Part shown: positions 4,413 to 7,392 of the stretch, piece by piece
How the letters are laid out: each line of letters starts with the position of its first letter
Position numbering within the stretch: position 1 is the stretch's first letter
Origin: Natrinema soli
Lineage (GTDB): Archaea > Halobacteriota > Halobacteria > Halobacteriales > Natrialbaceae
Direction of reading: 5' to 3'
Length of the DNA: 7,392 nt
Assembly: GCF_028618695.1 (NCBI RefSeq)
Contig: NZ_JAQIVI010000585.1
Coordinates: 1 to 7,392, forward strand
Position numbers and translations under genes: made by a program
Notes under the pieces: model-generated
Databases searched by the model: none
Told to the model about the DNA's origin: nothing
The model's input: the letters and a program-made list of their open reading frames with translations, nothing else

Positions 4413-4769
4413 GTGTCGGAGGCCAACCCCGTCGAGCGATGGCAGGCCGCCCTCGAAGAAGCCGGCGAACTCACGCCCGCGATCGTCGGCGATATCTCGC
4501 AGGTCCACGGCGACCGCGGGGTTCGCGCCATCGAGGCGGTCGGCGAAAACCGGGTGAAGGCCTACCGCGATTTCACGATCGTCGTCGGCTACGACGACGA
4601 GTACATCGTCGAGGACGGCGGCTGTACTTGCAAGGACAGCGAGTACAACCTCGACGCTGACGACCCGACCGAGAAGTGCTGGCACTCGCTGGCCGTCGCG
4701 ATCGCGCGCCGGGTCGGCCACGTCGACTACCACGATATGTGGTACTCGGAGGTCCGCGAACTGTTGTAG
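4413..4769 (+). CDS. SWIM zinc-finger domain protein
   Basis: A 118-residue acidic protein with the SWIM zinc-binding signature CxCx(n)CxH: Cys71-Thr-Cys73, then 15 residues, then Cys89-Trp-His91. The N-terminal 70 residues look like a small alpha/beta scaffold (Val/Ile-rich strand at 54-66). The part after the finger (92-118) looks helical. SWIM domains occur in SWI2/SNF2 ATPases, MuDR transposases, MEK kinases and the Sws1 subunit of the Shu recombination complex, where they bind DNA or proteins. Small stand-alone SWIM proteins are widespread in haloarchaea without a settled function. GTG is taken as the start because the TATA-like box at 4383-4390 is at leaderless distance. Its right neighbour is the replication initiator (convergent, 71-base gap). 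A link to replication or recombination is only suggested by position. Confidence 0.88.
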   Translation: MSEANPVERWQAALEEAGELTPAIVGDISQVHGDRGVRAIEAVGENRVKAYRDFTIVVGYDDEYIVEDGGCTCKDSEYNLDADDPTEKCWHSLAVAIARRVGHVDYHDMWYSEVRELL

Positions 4770-4840: not shown

Positions 4841-6040
4841 TCACTCGGACTCGTTACAGGCGGCGATGATGACTTTCGGATCGTCGATCAGCCGATTCTC
4901 CATGTAGTTCCCTTTCCCTCTGCCGGCCCACTTGCGCTCCTGCTCGATAATCGAGAGGAACTCGAGTTCCGAAAGGATGTCTCGGACGCGCCGGAGCTTC
5001 AGATGCTCGGACTGATCGCGATCACACAACCGCTTGTACAGGTCGTACGCTTCGTTCGTCGTTATCGGTGCGTCGTCCCCCTCCTTTTGCTGGGTGAGCA
5101 GCGCCATCGCCTCGAGAACCAGTTTCGCGTGACTCGGACTCTTGGAAATCAGTTCGGCGAGGCGGCTGGTCTCCTCGCGCTCGTGAGCGTGATCGACGCA
5201 GTCCTCCGTGACGGAGTCGTGGTCGTTCTCCTCGGCAATCTCGCCGGCGAATCGGAGGATATCGATCGCCTTCCGCGCGTCGCCGTGTTCACGGGCTGCC
5301 AGTGCGGCGACGCGAGGGACGACGCCGTCTTCGAGCACGCTCTCGTGGAACGCGTCGGAGCGTGATCGGAGAATCTCTCGGATCTGGGTCGCGTCGTACG
5401 GGGAGAAGACGTACTCCCGTTCACAGAGGCTCGATTTGATCCGCTCGTCCAGCGAGTCCTTGTACCGGACCTTGTTCGAGATTCCGATGACGCCGATCGT
5501 GCTCTCGGTGAGCTTTCCCGATTCGACCGCTCGCGAGAGCTGCATCAGGATTTCGTCGTCTTCGATCTTGTCCACCTCGTCCAGGATGATCAGCGCGACG
5601 TCGTACCGCGTGTCGACGATGCGCCAGAGACGACGGTAGTACTCGGCCGTGCTCAACCCCGAGTGGGGGATCGAGATCTCCGTTTCCGTCTGCTCGTTGA
5701 GTTGATGACCGGCCGATTGCACGGCCTGTGTCTCCGTCGATTCCTGGAGACAATCGACGTAGGCGACGCCGATCGATACGTCGTTATCCTTCGCACGCTC
5801 GACGGCGTGATTCGTGATGAATTTTGAACAGAGGGATTTCCCAGTACCCGTCTTTCCGTAGACGAGAACGTTGTTCGGCGTGTTCCCGCGCGTGGCCGGT
5901 TTAATCGCGTTCGCGAGGTTCGTCAGTTCGTCCTCGCGGCCGATAATCCGGTCGCCGTCCGGGAGGTGTGAGACCTGCAGGAGTTCCTTGTTCCGGAAGA
6001 CCTCATTTTCGCTGCCGAAGTAATCCATCGAGTCGGACAT
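4841..6040 (-). CDS. Orc1/Cdc6-family replication initiator
   Basis: A 399-residue AAA+ ATPase that binds origin recognition boxes and starts chromosome or plasmid replication, also helping MCM helicase loading. Visible features: the N-terminal FRNKELLQVSHLPD region (15-28) and IIGREDEL (32-39), Walker A GKTGTGKS (62-69), Walker B IILDEVD (151-157), sensor 1 ISNK with Asn189 (187-190), and sensor 2 GDARKAID with Arg256 (253-260). A C-terminal winged-helix domain (about 295-395) has the wing motif GRGKGNY at 373-379, which would contact DNA. The length is typical and all ATPase motifs are intact. The ATG at 6038-6040 is followed by the expected N-terminus. Immediately upstream lies a gene-free region with ORB-like repeats, the arrangement expected of an origin with its cognate initiator. 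Haloarchaea carry many Orc paralogues, so I do not assign a number or say whether this is the main chromosomal origin. Confidence 0.97.
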   Translation of the reverse strand: MSDSMDYFGSENEVFRNKELLQVSHLPDGDRIIGREDELTNLANAIKPATRGNTPNNVLVYGKTGTGKSLCSKFITNHAVERAKDNDVSIGVAYVDCLQESTETQAVQSAGHQLNEQTETEISIPHSGLSTAEYYRRLWRIVDTRYDVALIILDEVDKIEDDEILMQLSRAVESGKLTESTIGVIGISNKVRYKDSLDERIKSSLCEREYVFSPYDATQIREILRSRSDAFHESVLEDGVVPRVAALAAREHGDARKAIDILRFAGEIAEENDHDSVTEDCVDHAHEREETSRLAELISKSPSHAKLVLEAMALLTQQKEGDDAPITTNEAYDLYKRLCDRDQSEHLKLRRVRDILSELEFLSIIEQERKWAGRGKGNYMENRLIDDPKVIIAACNESE

Positions 6041-6068
6041 TCAGTTGGTCAAACGATTCATCGGAGAC

Positions 6069-6079
6069 CACTTAACCCA
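6069..6079 (-). promoter_or_regulatory. possible orc1/cdc6 promoter (TTAA core)
   Basis: The minus strand reads TGGGTTAAGTG across this site, with TTAA at 6072-6075, about 33 bases before the ATG. It implies a leader of only a few bases. Repeat copy 1 (6094-6102) is about 20 bases further upstream, close enough for initiator binding to affect transcription. Confidence 0.35.
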
Positions 6080-6093
6080 TTCGGACCGTGGTG

Positions 6094-6102
6094 CCGCTGT
6101 AT
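6094..6102 (-). repeat. ORB-like copy 1 (core only)
   Basis: Exact CCGCTGTAT core on the + strand. At the G-string position (6083-6087) there is only a partial match, CGACC-like rather than ACCCC. It is closest to the orc promoter. Confidence 0.6.
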
Positions 6103-6145
6103 ATTGTCTGAATGCTCTTTAGAGGATTTAAAGCTGGGAATTTAG

Positions 6146-6165
6146 ACCCCTCATTGCCGCTGTAT
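6146..6165 (-). repeat. ORB-like copy 2 (full unit)
   Basis: ACCCC, six bases (TCATTG), then exact CCGCTGTAT. This is a complete core plus G-string. An AT-rich stretch (6100-6145) separates it from copy 1. Confidence 0.75.
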
Positions 6166-6188
6166 GGCCGGAATACAACTCCGTATTT

Positions 6189-6197
6189 CCGCTGTAT
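6189..6197 (-). repeat. ORB-like copy 3 (core, near-complete G-string)
   Basis: Exact CCGCTGTAT core. At the fixed 6-base distance lies ACTCC (6178-6182), one base off ACCCC. Confidence 0.65.
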
Positions 6198-6220
6198 TGT
6201 CCGTCCGTGACCGTGCGGTC

Positions 6221-6229
6221 TCGCTGTAT
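6221..6229 (-). repeat. ORB-like copy 4 (degenerate)
   Basis: TCGCTGTAT, one mismatch in the core; the G-string position reads ACCGT. It keeps the 32-base spacing from copy 3. Confidence 0.5.
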
Positions 6230-6294
6230 CGTATTCGGAACCTTCCTCTCGAGAACTGATTCGCCGGGTTCACCTGCAGTTGCGCACCGAACTT

Positions 6295-6303
6295 CTGCTG
6301 TAT
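6295..6303 (-). repeat. ORB-like copy 5 (degenerate)
   Basis: CTGCTGTAT, one mismatch in the core and no clear G-string. Its position is exactly 201 bases from copy 1. Confidence 0.5.
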
Positions 6304-6346
6304 ATCGCCGAAATGGGTTATAGATGGACTGATTCAGTTGTTCACC

Positions 6347-6366
6347 ACCCCTCGGTGCCGCTGTAT
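6347..6366 (-). repeat. ORB-like copy 6 (full unit)
   Basis: ACCCC, six bases (TCGGTG), then exact CCGCTGTAT. It is 201 bases from copy 2 and has the same CCCCTC start. Confidence 0.75.
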
Positions 6367-6378
6367 TCGGAGTCACAC

Positions 6379-6398
6379 ACCCCGAAATGCCGCTGTAA
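6379..6398 (-). repeat. ORB-like copy 7 (full unit)
   Basis: ACCCC, six bases (GAAATG), then CCGCTGTAA. It extends leftwards as CACACCCC and so matches the inverted copy 8 (also ACACCCC...CTGTAA) best of all. Confidence 0.75.
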
Positions 6399-6521
6399 CG
6401 ACGCGGCGGTGGGAGCGTACCAGAAACGAGGGTTCGAGTATGCAGATCGAGCGAAAGACGGGTTCAGGAGAGCGATCAGGCGAACGACGGTACAGGCCTG
6501 AGTCGACTCGAGTGATAATCC

Positions 6522-6559
6522 TGCGTTCGAAACCGACCGAACGTAATTGCGTTCAAAAC
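6522..6559. repeat. 12-base direct repeat pair overlapping an inverted repeat
   Basis: TGCGTTCGAAAC (6522-6533) and TGCGTTCAAAAC (6548-6559) differ at one base and start 26 bases apart. Overlapping the first, CGTTCG and CGAACG (6524-6529 and 6538-6543) form a 6-base inverted repeat with an 8-base loop. It lies beside the AT-rich part of the origin spacer and may be a second protein-binding site. Confidence 0.35.
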
Positions 6560-6586
6560 ACTCAGTGGATGGTGACACACCAGTAG

Positions 6587-6595
6587 TATTTAATA
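6587..6595. promoter_or_regulatory. strong TATA-like or unwinding-element sequence
   Basis: TATTTAATA is the best TATA-box match in the window. It is not followed by a convincing gene on either strand. It may be part of the AT-rich unwinding element, or the promoter of a short untranslated RNA. Confidence 0.4.
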
Positions 6596-6687
6596 GCATT
6601 GTCTCTCGGTTCGGACGACGTGACAGTTGAACTCGTAACTCAGCTAGATCGATCGAAATATCGCAGCTCGGCCAGTATCCCGGGGAC

Positions 6688-6707
6688 TTACAGCGGAACT
6701 CTGGGGT
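6688..6707 (+). repeat. ORB-like copy 8 (full unit, inverted)
   Basis: TTACAGCGG, six bases (AACTCT), then GGGGT, continuing as GTG. It is the only copy on the opposite strand and marks the right edge of the putative origin. It pairs with copy 7 across the spacer. Confidence 0.75.
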
Positions 6708-6823
6708 GTGTCGCTCCGTCACTTCGCTCGATCCAGCCCTCTCTATCTCATAAGAACAGTCACGTCTCACTCACCCACCTTTTCCGCTCGGGTTCGTTCG
6801 CGCTGCTCACTCACCACTCACGG

Positions 6824-6842
6824 CAAAAATCTGGACCAAAAA
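6824..6842 (-). terminator. paired T5 tracts downstream of hisH
   Basis: On the minus strand, 37 bases after the hisH stop, two TTTTT tracts (6842-6838 and 6828-6824) are separated by GGTCCAGA. Runs of T without an obvious strong hairpin are typical archaeal terminators. The stretch 6711-6878 is otherwise a gene-free region with several CTCACTC-type short repeats (6766-6774, 6806-6814, 6849-6856). Confidence 0.55.
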
Positions 6843-6878
6843 GGACCGCTCACTCCTGATGGTCGTTCGCGATCAAAG

Positions 6879-7392
6879 TCACGCTTCGACGCAGATCTCG
6901 ACGAAGTTCCGCAGGATCTGTAGTCCCGTCTCGCCGCTCTTCTCGGGGTGGAACTGCGTGCCGAAGACGTTCCCCGCCTCGTTGGCCACGATCGAGGGGA
7001 ACTCGAGTTCGTAGTCCGTCGTCGCGACCGTCGCGTGTTCGTCGTCCGGGGCCGCGTAATACGAGTGGACGAAGTACGCGTAGTTCCCGTCCACGCCCGC
7101 TACGAGGGGATGGTCGCGCTGGATCTCGAGTTCGTTCCAGCCCATGTGCGGAACCTTCTGGCCCTCGGCGAATCGGACGTTGGTGCCGGGGATCAGATCC
7201 AGCCCCTGGACGGCCGACTCGCCCTCGTTTTCGCCCTCCTCGCTCGTCGTGAGTAGCATCTGCATCCCGAGACAGATACCGAAGAGAGGGGTGCCGCTGT
7301 CGGCCACCTCGAGGAGGTCCTCGCGAAGCGGGTCGGCGTTCTCGACGCCCTCGCGGAACGCGCCGACGCCGGGCAGGACGACGCCGTCGGCC
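6879..7392 (-). CDS. hisH: imidazole glycerol phosphate synthase glutaminase subunit HisH (N-terminus outside window)
   Basis: HisH is the class I glutamine amidotransferase half of the HisH-HisF complex in histidine synthesis. It hydrolyses glutamine and passes ammonia to HisF, which converts PRFAR into imidazole glycerol phosphate and AICAR. The window holds 170 residues; roughly the first 35 are cut off at the right edge. Visible marks: LPGVGAF near the start (visible 6-12), the nucleophile elbow FGICLGMQM with catalytic Cys at visible residue 40 (codon 7272-7274), PHMGWN (81-86), YFVHSYYA (106-113), and TQFHPEKSG with the catalytic His148 and Glu150. The catalytic triad is intact, and the C-terminus (LRNFVE) is typical. 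The stop is TGA at 6879-6881, followed by T-rich tracts. It is the first gene beyond the putative origin; its promoter is outside the window. Confidence 0.96.
   Translation of the reverse strand, partial: ADGVVLPGVGAFREGVENADPLREDLLEVADSGTPLFGICLGMQMLLTTSEEGENEGESAVQGLDLIPGTNVRFAEGQKVPHMGWNELEIQRDHPLVAGVDGNYAYFVHSYYAAPDDEHATVATTDYELEFPSIVANEAGNVFGTQFHPEKSGETGLQILRNFVEICVEA

Follow-up and report, generated by a model that had tools for sequence, protein, structure and literature searches.

The gene-free region upstream of an orc1/cdc6 initiator gene in Natrinema soli carries a short repeated motif, which raises the question of whether the locus is a replication origin dependent on that initiator and, if so, where within it the duplex might open. 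The window, meaning the whole stretch of DNA that was analysed (7,392 bp), has the following layout around this region.

Left of SWIM118, minus strand: trm1
Left of SWIM118, minus strand: gene for a YihY-type membrane protein
4413-4769, plus strand: gene for a 118-aa protein, for which we coined the label SWIM118
4841-6040, minus strand: orc1/cdc6 initiator gene, 399 aa (TIGR02928, 416.6 bits; Cdc6_lid and Cdc6_C domains)
6041-6878: intergenic region of 838 bp between hisH and orc1/cdc6
6071-6077, minus strand: GGTTAAG, presumed to be the orc TATA box, immediately behind ORB copy 1
3' end at 6879, minus strand: hisH

SWIM118 had no Pfam or NCBIfam match, and its sequence contains C-x-C and C-x-H pairs. 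The closest named relative found was Natrinema zhouii, with an Orc 99% identical to that of the window; the first homologue scan yielded Natrialbaceae alone, and the wider Orc families come from later searches. The window Orc can be aligned over nearly its whole length with the solved archaeal Orc1/Cdc6 structures 2qby and 2v1u (E about 1e-62), but both are distant from it. The position of GGTTAAG and its conservation in an alignment of 31 loci suggest that it is used as the orc promoter element.

Eight CCGCTGTAT-type cores lie at 6094-6696, four of them with a G4 block exactly 6 bp on.

6094-6102, minus strand: ORB copy 1, promoter-proximal, without G4
6146-6165, minus strand: ORB copy 2, ATACAGCGG-N6-GGGGT
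6178-6197, minus strand: ORB copy 3, ATACAGCGG-N6-GGAGT
6221-6229, minus strand: ORB core copy 4, one mismatch, without G block
6295-6303, minus strand: ORB core copy 5, one mismatch, without G block
6347-6366, minus strand: ORB copy 6, full motif
6379-6398, minus strand: ORB copy 7, full motif, inner member of the inverted pair
6688-6707, plus strand: ORB copy 8, full motif, inverted member

With at most one mismatch, ATACAGCGG matches the window 9 times against 1.09 expected, a count of at least 9 being reached in 0 of 200 shuffles. Eight of the nine matches are intergenic (4 exact, 4 with one mismatch), with cores at 6094, 6157, 6189, 6221, 6295, 6358, and 6390 on the minus strand and 6688 on the plus strand. 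Within 6041-6878 alone, the 8 observed cores compare with a shuffled mean of 0.116 and a maximum of 2 in 2,000 shuffles, while ACAGCGG-N6-GGGGT occurs 4 times in the window and never in 300 window shuffles. Chance repeats were rejected because shuffles reach neither count. The sequence-only reading had placed a C4/G4 block at exactly 6 bases in copies 2, 6, 7, and 8 and had described seven copies in one orientation and one inverted, and both statements proved correct. Its claim that the cores are confined to the gene-free region stands for the exact core and the full motif but fails for the loose core, since the ninth match, GTACAGCGG at 2021-2029, lies inside the YihY gene. The 289-bp spacer between copies 7 and 8, which it had called AT-rich, is only mildly so (54% GC versus 64% for the locus), and the AT-richest upstream 40-mer of the window falls between copies 1 and 2; the spacer contains the AT-richest 40-mer at 27 of 31 loci examined.

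All matches to ACAGCGG-N6-GGGGT in three whole genomes fall in the orc upstream region (4/4, 7/7, and 7/7), and the reversed pattern gives 0, 1, and 0 matches in the same genomes. At least one match is present in 138 of 199 relatives, many of them single, as for the reversed pattern. A similar density across the genome, which had been named beforehand as an argument against a specific ORB, was thus not found in these relatives, and a dispersed motif was rejected, all matches lying at the orc locus in 3/3 whole genomes. We also rejected a virus-borne origin: seven viral contigs contain one exact TACAGCGG-N6-GGGGTGTG match each, which we take as chance, with no second box scoring at least 10 and no tblastn match to the six window proteins.

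We counted boxes scoring at least 18 up to 1.5 kb upstream of orc, using a matrix trained on loci that it then counts. At least two boxes were present at 54/54 loci with an Orc at least 60% identical to that of the window (family A; L034 and L001 are one place among these rows). Loci with an Orc 54 to 58% identical (family B) carried the family-A box in 0/8 cases and instead have 3 to 8 boxes of the form TTTCACCGGAAAC-GGTGT. The other N. zhouii Orc rows examined gave 0/13 (L040 and L043 represent a single gene, no Orc match came from L045, and further partial matches are not included). The exceptions are L124 (Orc 47% identical), with three boxes, and L116 (36%), with one; L126 and L128 have no box. 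We note that the family-B box (e.g., TTTCACCGGAAACCCGGTGTG) often matches both strands, being nearly palindromic (L094, L097, L112-L115, and L117).

Origins adjacent to orc/cdc6 in haloarchaea have been described as having intergenic ORBs mostly upstream of orc, with a G-string, an inverted pair around an AT-rich spacer, and ORBs whose sequence goes with the family of the Orc (Wu et al. 2012, PMC3528665). The window shares with them the adjacent orc1/cdc6, inverted ORBs 289 bp apart, GGGGT in 4/8 copies, and, apart from L124 and L116, the linkage of ORB to Orc family. The array is real, and its ORBs fall within an established type of origin, that with the Orc-matched, G-string ORBs of haloarchaea. 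The sequence-only reading had proposed that the motif defines this Orc clade; the family counts agree, but the CAGCGG/GGGGT shape alone is not clade-defining, because a similar ORB stands beside a 39% identical Orc and L124 also has boxes. Its suggestion of an undescribed ORB class was not borne out, since the similar ORB TAACAGCGGAAACAGTGGGGTGGGGGGGT, common to Hla_3512 and Hwa_HQ2959A, is in print (PMC3528665). This ORB has an ACAGCGG half and a GGGGT half in the order of the window box but differs in having 7 rather than 6 bases between the halves and a long G tail, and in H. lacusprofundi it lies about 1 kb upstream of the Orc with 39% identity. The box WTACAGCGG-N6-GGGGTGTG itself was not found in the examined text of PMC3528665, whose full ORB list (Additional file 4) may include it.

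A 16S rRNA gene near orc is reported for oriCb with Hvo orc5 (PMC3528665), and in 3/3 chromosomal family-B genomes looked at a 16S gene is situated about 2.3 kb beyond orc, from which rRNA synteny we infer that family B is oriCb (Hvo orc5, oriC2). The oriC2 origin with Orc5 is listed as active (PMC7776575). Family-B loci have the spacer core described below in common with the window but differ from it in box and in Orc, the identity of 54 to 58% placing the window Orc below the value of at least 80% that delimits the oriCb family (PMC3528665). With L035, the Orc encoded at the start of the N. zhouii chromosome and, to judge from that place, presumably the oriC1 Orc, the window Orc shares 45% identity.

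Within family A, the sub-branch L090, L099, and L100 has TTACATCGGCACTCCGGGGTGTG-like boxes with ACATCGG for ACAGCGG, the box forms of the two sub-branches being ATACAGCGG versus TTACATCGG. Six fixed positions set the Orcs of these three loci apart from the remaining family-A Orcs, and three of the six lie in the winged helix (K348R, D354E, and N382H, numbered as window Orc residues 348, 354, and 382), where family B has S348, D354, and H382. It is a guess that these three residues read the changed box base, and the combined difference in box and winged helix offers a natural test of initiator specificity.

The array has a partly fixed architecture. Across 31 loci, the first direct step is 32-34 bp in 31/31 and the last is 63-65 bp in 30/31, usually after a step of 32-33 bp, and 89 of 215 steps measure 31-34 bp and 55 measure 62-65 bp. 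Lengths of 32 and 63 bp correspond to about 3 and 6 turns of 10.5 bp. Outside these fixed steps, helical phase was unconvincing (p 0.047; p 0.72 for distinct values), and a phase common to all steps was rejected, whole turns being matched by the fixed 32- and 63-bp steps alone. The inverted copy and the first direct copy mostly have GGGGTGTG tails. In the promoter-proximal copy, G4 is missing from its usual position, and the copy continues into the presumed BRE/TATA, e.g., CCGAAC-GTTTAAG (30/31 loci; L022 is truncated). Most of the 30 loci with fixed box steps have Orcs 92 to 99% identical, and the inner inverted pair is 272-299 bp apart in 11/13 loci with 60 to 65% identical Orcs. In L020 (Natrarchaeobius), 20 boxes scoring at least 10 lie upstream of 1851, many of them 33-36 bp apart.

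An alignment of 15 short spacers revealed a conserved block between the inverted ORBs, laid out as a TATA-like box, a GTCCATTGA-type block, and then a sequence-variable inverted repeat. Its elements in the window are as follows.

6501-6601, minus strand: conserved core element of the putative origin, in the spacer, about 100 bp (alignment and models R1 and R2)
6587-6593, minus strand: TATA-like box TTAAATA
6559-6570, minus strand: GTCCATTGA-type block, here ATCCACTGAGTG, with its A at 6566 as the start-like base
6549-6556, minus strand: unit U1, TTGAACGC
6537-6544, minus strand: unit U' (inverted), ACGTTCGG
6523-6531, minus strand: unit U3, TTCGAACGC
6503-6512, minus strand: block closing the core, CTCGAGTCGA

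The consensus is about TAAATAC-N-CTGTGTnA-AAGTCCATTGAGTG-U1-U'-U3-CTCGAGtCGAA. Core scores were 47 to 148 in 38/38 loci tried (the window, L001-L030, L095, L096, L101, and L108-L111) against a best score of 32 in 20 intervals without orc; these scores are partly circular, as the five seed strings comprise three stretches taken from L011, L016, and L025 and two blends. The units covary between species (TTGAACG, TTGGACG, GTGAACG, TCGAACG), and the U1-U3 distance is 0.51 within a locus versus 1.49 between loci, with 0/5,000 permutations as low (35/38 rows, L002, L022, and L095 being dropped for gaps; the permutations leave relatedness in). Of 75 distinct loci (out of 96 collected), 38 have a perfect inverted repeat of at least 7 bp behind the GTCCA block, with arm sequences that vary widely, versus 2.1% of shuffles. 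The TATA-like centre precedes the A of nCCA by 24 bp in 52 of 81 loci (96 tried), by 22-26 bp in 69, and by 16 bp in 12. Intact orc at L002 is accompanied by a core (5441-5552) without U' and U3, as after U1-U3 recombination, and ten loci with Orcs of 60 to 62% identity (L089, L091, L093, L098, and L102-L107) have a core of their own, with a TTTAT box, a TACCGTAC block, and a hairpin, similar in plan and written in other letters.

In most loci the spacing of the TATA-like box agrees with a haloarchaeal core promoter, in which such a box stands about 22-28 bp ahead of the start-like base. A CGAAA-type BRE is given for haloarchaeal promoters (PMC4983044), and alignments A1 and A2 have no such conserved block upstream of the core TATA-like box. 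RNAalifold gave 6 weak U'-U3 pairs, both sides being changed in 4 of them, and the core RNA folds barely better than shuffles (mean z -1.1), so that a strong fold was rejected; a known RNA family was likewise rejected, there being no Rfam match. In H. volcanii, a transcript start lies far upstream of orc5 together with a Northern-verified small RNA, which is strongly induced only in low salt (PMC6490895).

Two sequence models were used to ask where else the core occurs. R1, built from 30 training rows (matched by construction), was run on 199 genomes and matched in 59/59 genomes with a family-A Orc at least 78% identical, on the orc strand and 349 to 1,243 bp upstream; at most 28 of these genomes supplied training rows. 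Among the R1 matches listed, all with E 1e-5 or better are at a family-A orc, including those of G016 (truncated) and G055 (broken), the weaker ones being scattered and in part upstream of family-B orcs. R1 gave on 39 loci 7 matches (E up to 5), 7/7 upstream of orc and on its strand, and 8 of 15 family-B upstream stretches matched at 7e-4 or better, six of the 15 having been chosen for weak R1 matches. R2 covers 62 positions and has 38 training rows from families A and B, again matched by construction. On 66 genomes it gave 13 matches, 12 with an Orc in the adjoining stretch and 11/12 of these on the orc strand; training rows came from G141, G143, G164, and G193, and eight of the other nine matches have an Orc. 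At family-B loci 12/14 matched R2 (7 are training rows), with L181 pointing away from orc. The core in this form was absent by R2 at 14/16 loci with 60 to 65% identical Orcs and at 13/14 N. zhouii Orc loci tested. Of the 14 loci without it in the first group, ten were aligned and have the TTTAT-type core instead.

It is the untrained matches that tie the core to Orc genes. Class-wide, 108 of 391 genomes match R2 at E 5e-4 or better, and the 40 untrained stretches are those class-wide matches whose Orc neighbour was not yet known, many of them being close relatives of each other. An Orc lies within 2 kb at 38/40, and at 35/38 the core is upstream of orc on the orc strand, with L233, L241, and L245 pointing away; L191 likewise has a core upstream of orc but pointing away. 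The Orc partners are mostly family B (75 to 99% identical to L113), with one of family A (71%) and others closest to L035 or L124 (50 to 56%). L262 ends at a contig end, and since the other end of that contig carries an Orc at 566 it may be the 39th Orc-adjacent match. L227 (G213:C3:103771-103824) has a core with a perfect 8-bp inverted repeat and no Orc found within 2 kb, and is a possible orphan origin. As judged from these sequences, the spacer core is common to several Orc classes with different boxes.

The orc cassette has moved and decayed. It is flanked by hisH and SWIM118 in 23 of 30 contig loci (L020 is a short contig), and at L022-L025, L029, L030, and the plasmid loci orc is elsewhere with the array kept. 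Both flanking genes were present in 54/54 genomes picked for absence of an intact family-A Orc, from which 20 orc-less hisH-SWIM intervals were chosen by gap length (G016, with a truncated orc, is one of the 54 and outside the 20). Sixteen of the 20 have no box scoring at least 8, and four keep relicts: two boxes 32 bp apart in G021 and G087, one in G100, and one weak box in G005. The orc-less hisH-SWIM intervals L130, L131, L132, and L135, retaining one or two boxes, resemble fossil origins. The gene itself is truncated in L123 and broken in L030/L118, and L022 lacks the first 15 codons of orc along with the promoter-proximal ORB copy. GC- or keto-skew showed no turn at the locus in 400 kb of N. 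zhouii, and skew therefore lends no support to an origin there.

We consider it probable, at roughly 0.8, that the locus is a chromosomal replication origin of a Natrinema-like haloarchaeon, dependent on the adjacent Orc1/Cdc6 and combining ORBs, an opening core, and an autoregulatory array. In its favor we count the locus-restricted motif, the Orc-clade boxes, the array kept with a moved orc and its decay in orc-less intervals, the inner-pair spacing, the fixed first and last steps, the core beside Orcs with its inverted repeat and TATA-like spacing, the likeness of family B to oriCb, the H. volcanii orc5 small RNA, and the active oriC2. Against it we count the lack of a skew turn and of a BRE, the weak RNA fold and pairs, the lack of an Rfam match, the core missing at most N. 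zhouii Orc loci and most loci with 60 to 65% Orcs, L002 without U'/U3, the orphan L227, the three matches pointing away, and the unphased other steps. In such an origin, the Orc winged helix would sit on the ATACAGCGG half of each ORB and its AAA+ domain on the GGGGT half, and copies 7 and 8, the inverted pair whose G/T tails are extended, would bracket duplex opening and MCM loading. The melting site would be the core, with its TATA-like box, GTCCATTGA block, and inverted repeat, and its sequence suggests that it is probably also a promoter firing a small RNA towards the array. The fixed 32- and 63-bp steps of the same-strand array would set Orc molecules on one face of the helix; because the last copy abuts the orc promoter, bound Orc would repress its own gene, and the spare ORB copies would titrate Orc.

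The strongest competing view concerns the core, which could be purely a DNA element, untranscribed, that acts in unwinding or helicase loading or as the site of a second protein and looks TATA-like through AT-richness, the palindromic triplet U1-U'-U3 then being a binding site or an extruded hairpin. We give this somewhat less than an even chance. The AT-richest 40-mer in the spacer of most loci, the missing BRE, and the weak RNA fold are all consistent with it, as are units that vary in concert, which would be expected for sites of one protein or a cruciform. Melting alone would not need the nearly fixed distance from TATA-like box to GTCCA block, however, and the direction of the core towards orc in 35/38 cases and the small RNA upstream of H. 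volcanii orc5 (PMC6490895) also argue for a promoter.

That the locus is a dormant or relict origin, with Orc and boxes kept and no firing in normal growth, appears unlikely, although dormant origins are published for haloarchaea (PMC4595724) and both the relicts in 4/20 orc-less intervals and the lack of a skew turn would fit. Orcs 92 to 99% identical and fixed steps are unlike a decaying site, while a dormant origin under selection would keep both. A role of the array solely in orc expression, as operator or as Orc-titration site, with replication starting elsewhere, is improbable: copy 1 does abut the presumed orc promoter, and spare ORBs beside one orc of H. hispanica oriC2 (oriC2D) likely titrate Cdc6E (PMC3936714), but against it stand the inverted pair around a conserved core, kept at 276-300 bp in relatives, and the recurrence of the window's core beside other Orc classes. 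The oriC2D cluster lies downstream of cdc6E, whereas the spare copies of the window are upstream of orc; at 30/31 loci no box scoring at least 15 was found in the gene or 2 kb downstream, the single match being at the 5'-truncated gene of L022, and a downstream titration region of this type was rejected. Segregation (centromere-like) sites can hold same-strand iterons with regular steps, as here, but such a site beside orc by chance is very improbable, given that none of the seven annotated stretches carrying family-A Orcs has an annotated partition gene and that the box tracks the Orc family.

The spacer core is a more surprising finding than the ORBs. No mention of it was found in the examined text of PMC3528665, the spacer is described only as AT-rich in the literature examined, and the roughly 100-bp core appears new within the open-access text searched. 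We tentatively propose that haloarchaeal origins of several Orc classes share one ORB-independent, promoter-like core whose short hairpin RNA helps opening or licensing. If this is true, the H. volcanii small RNA found upstream of orc5 would be an instance, and a common transcription-linked core would mark the origins of this group, with ORBs as exchangeable address labels. ORBs show which Orc binds, not where or how a haloarchaeal origin opens. Because the core recurs in Orc classes whose boxes are unrelated, largely preserves its orientation and inner distances, and by itself finds Orc genes, work on the opening site, and on whether transcription plays a part in archaeal initiation, gains something definite to aim at; the core may also help to locate origins whose ORBs are unknown.
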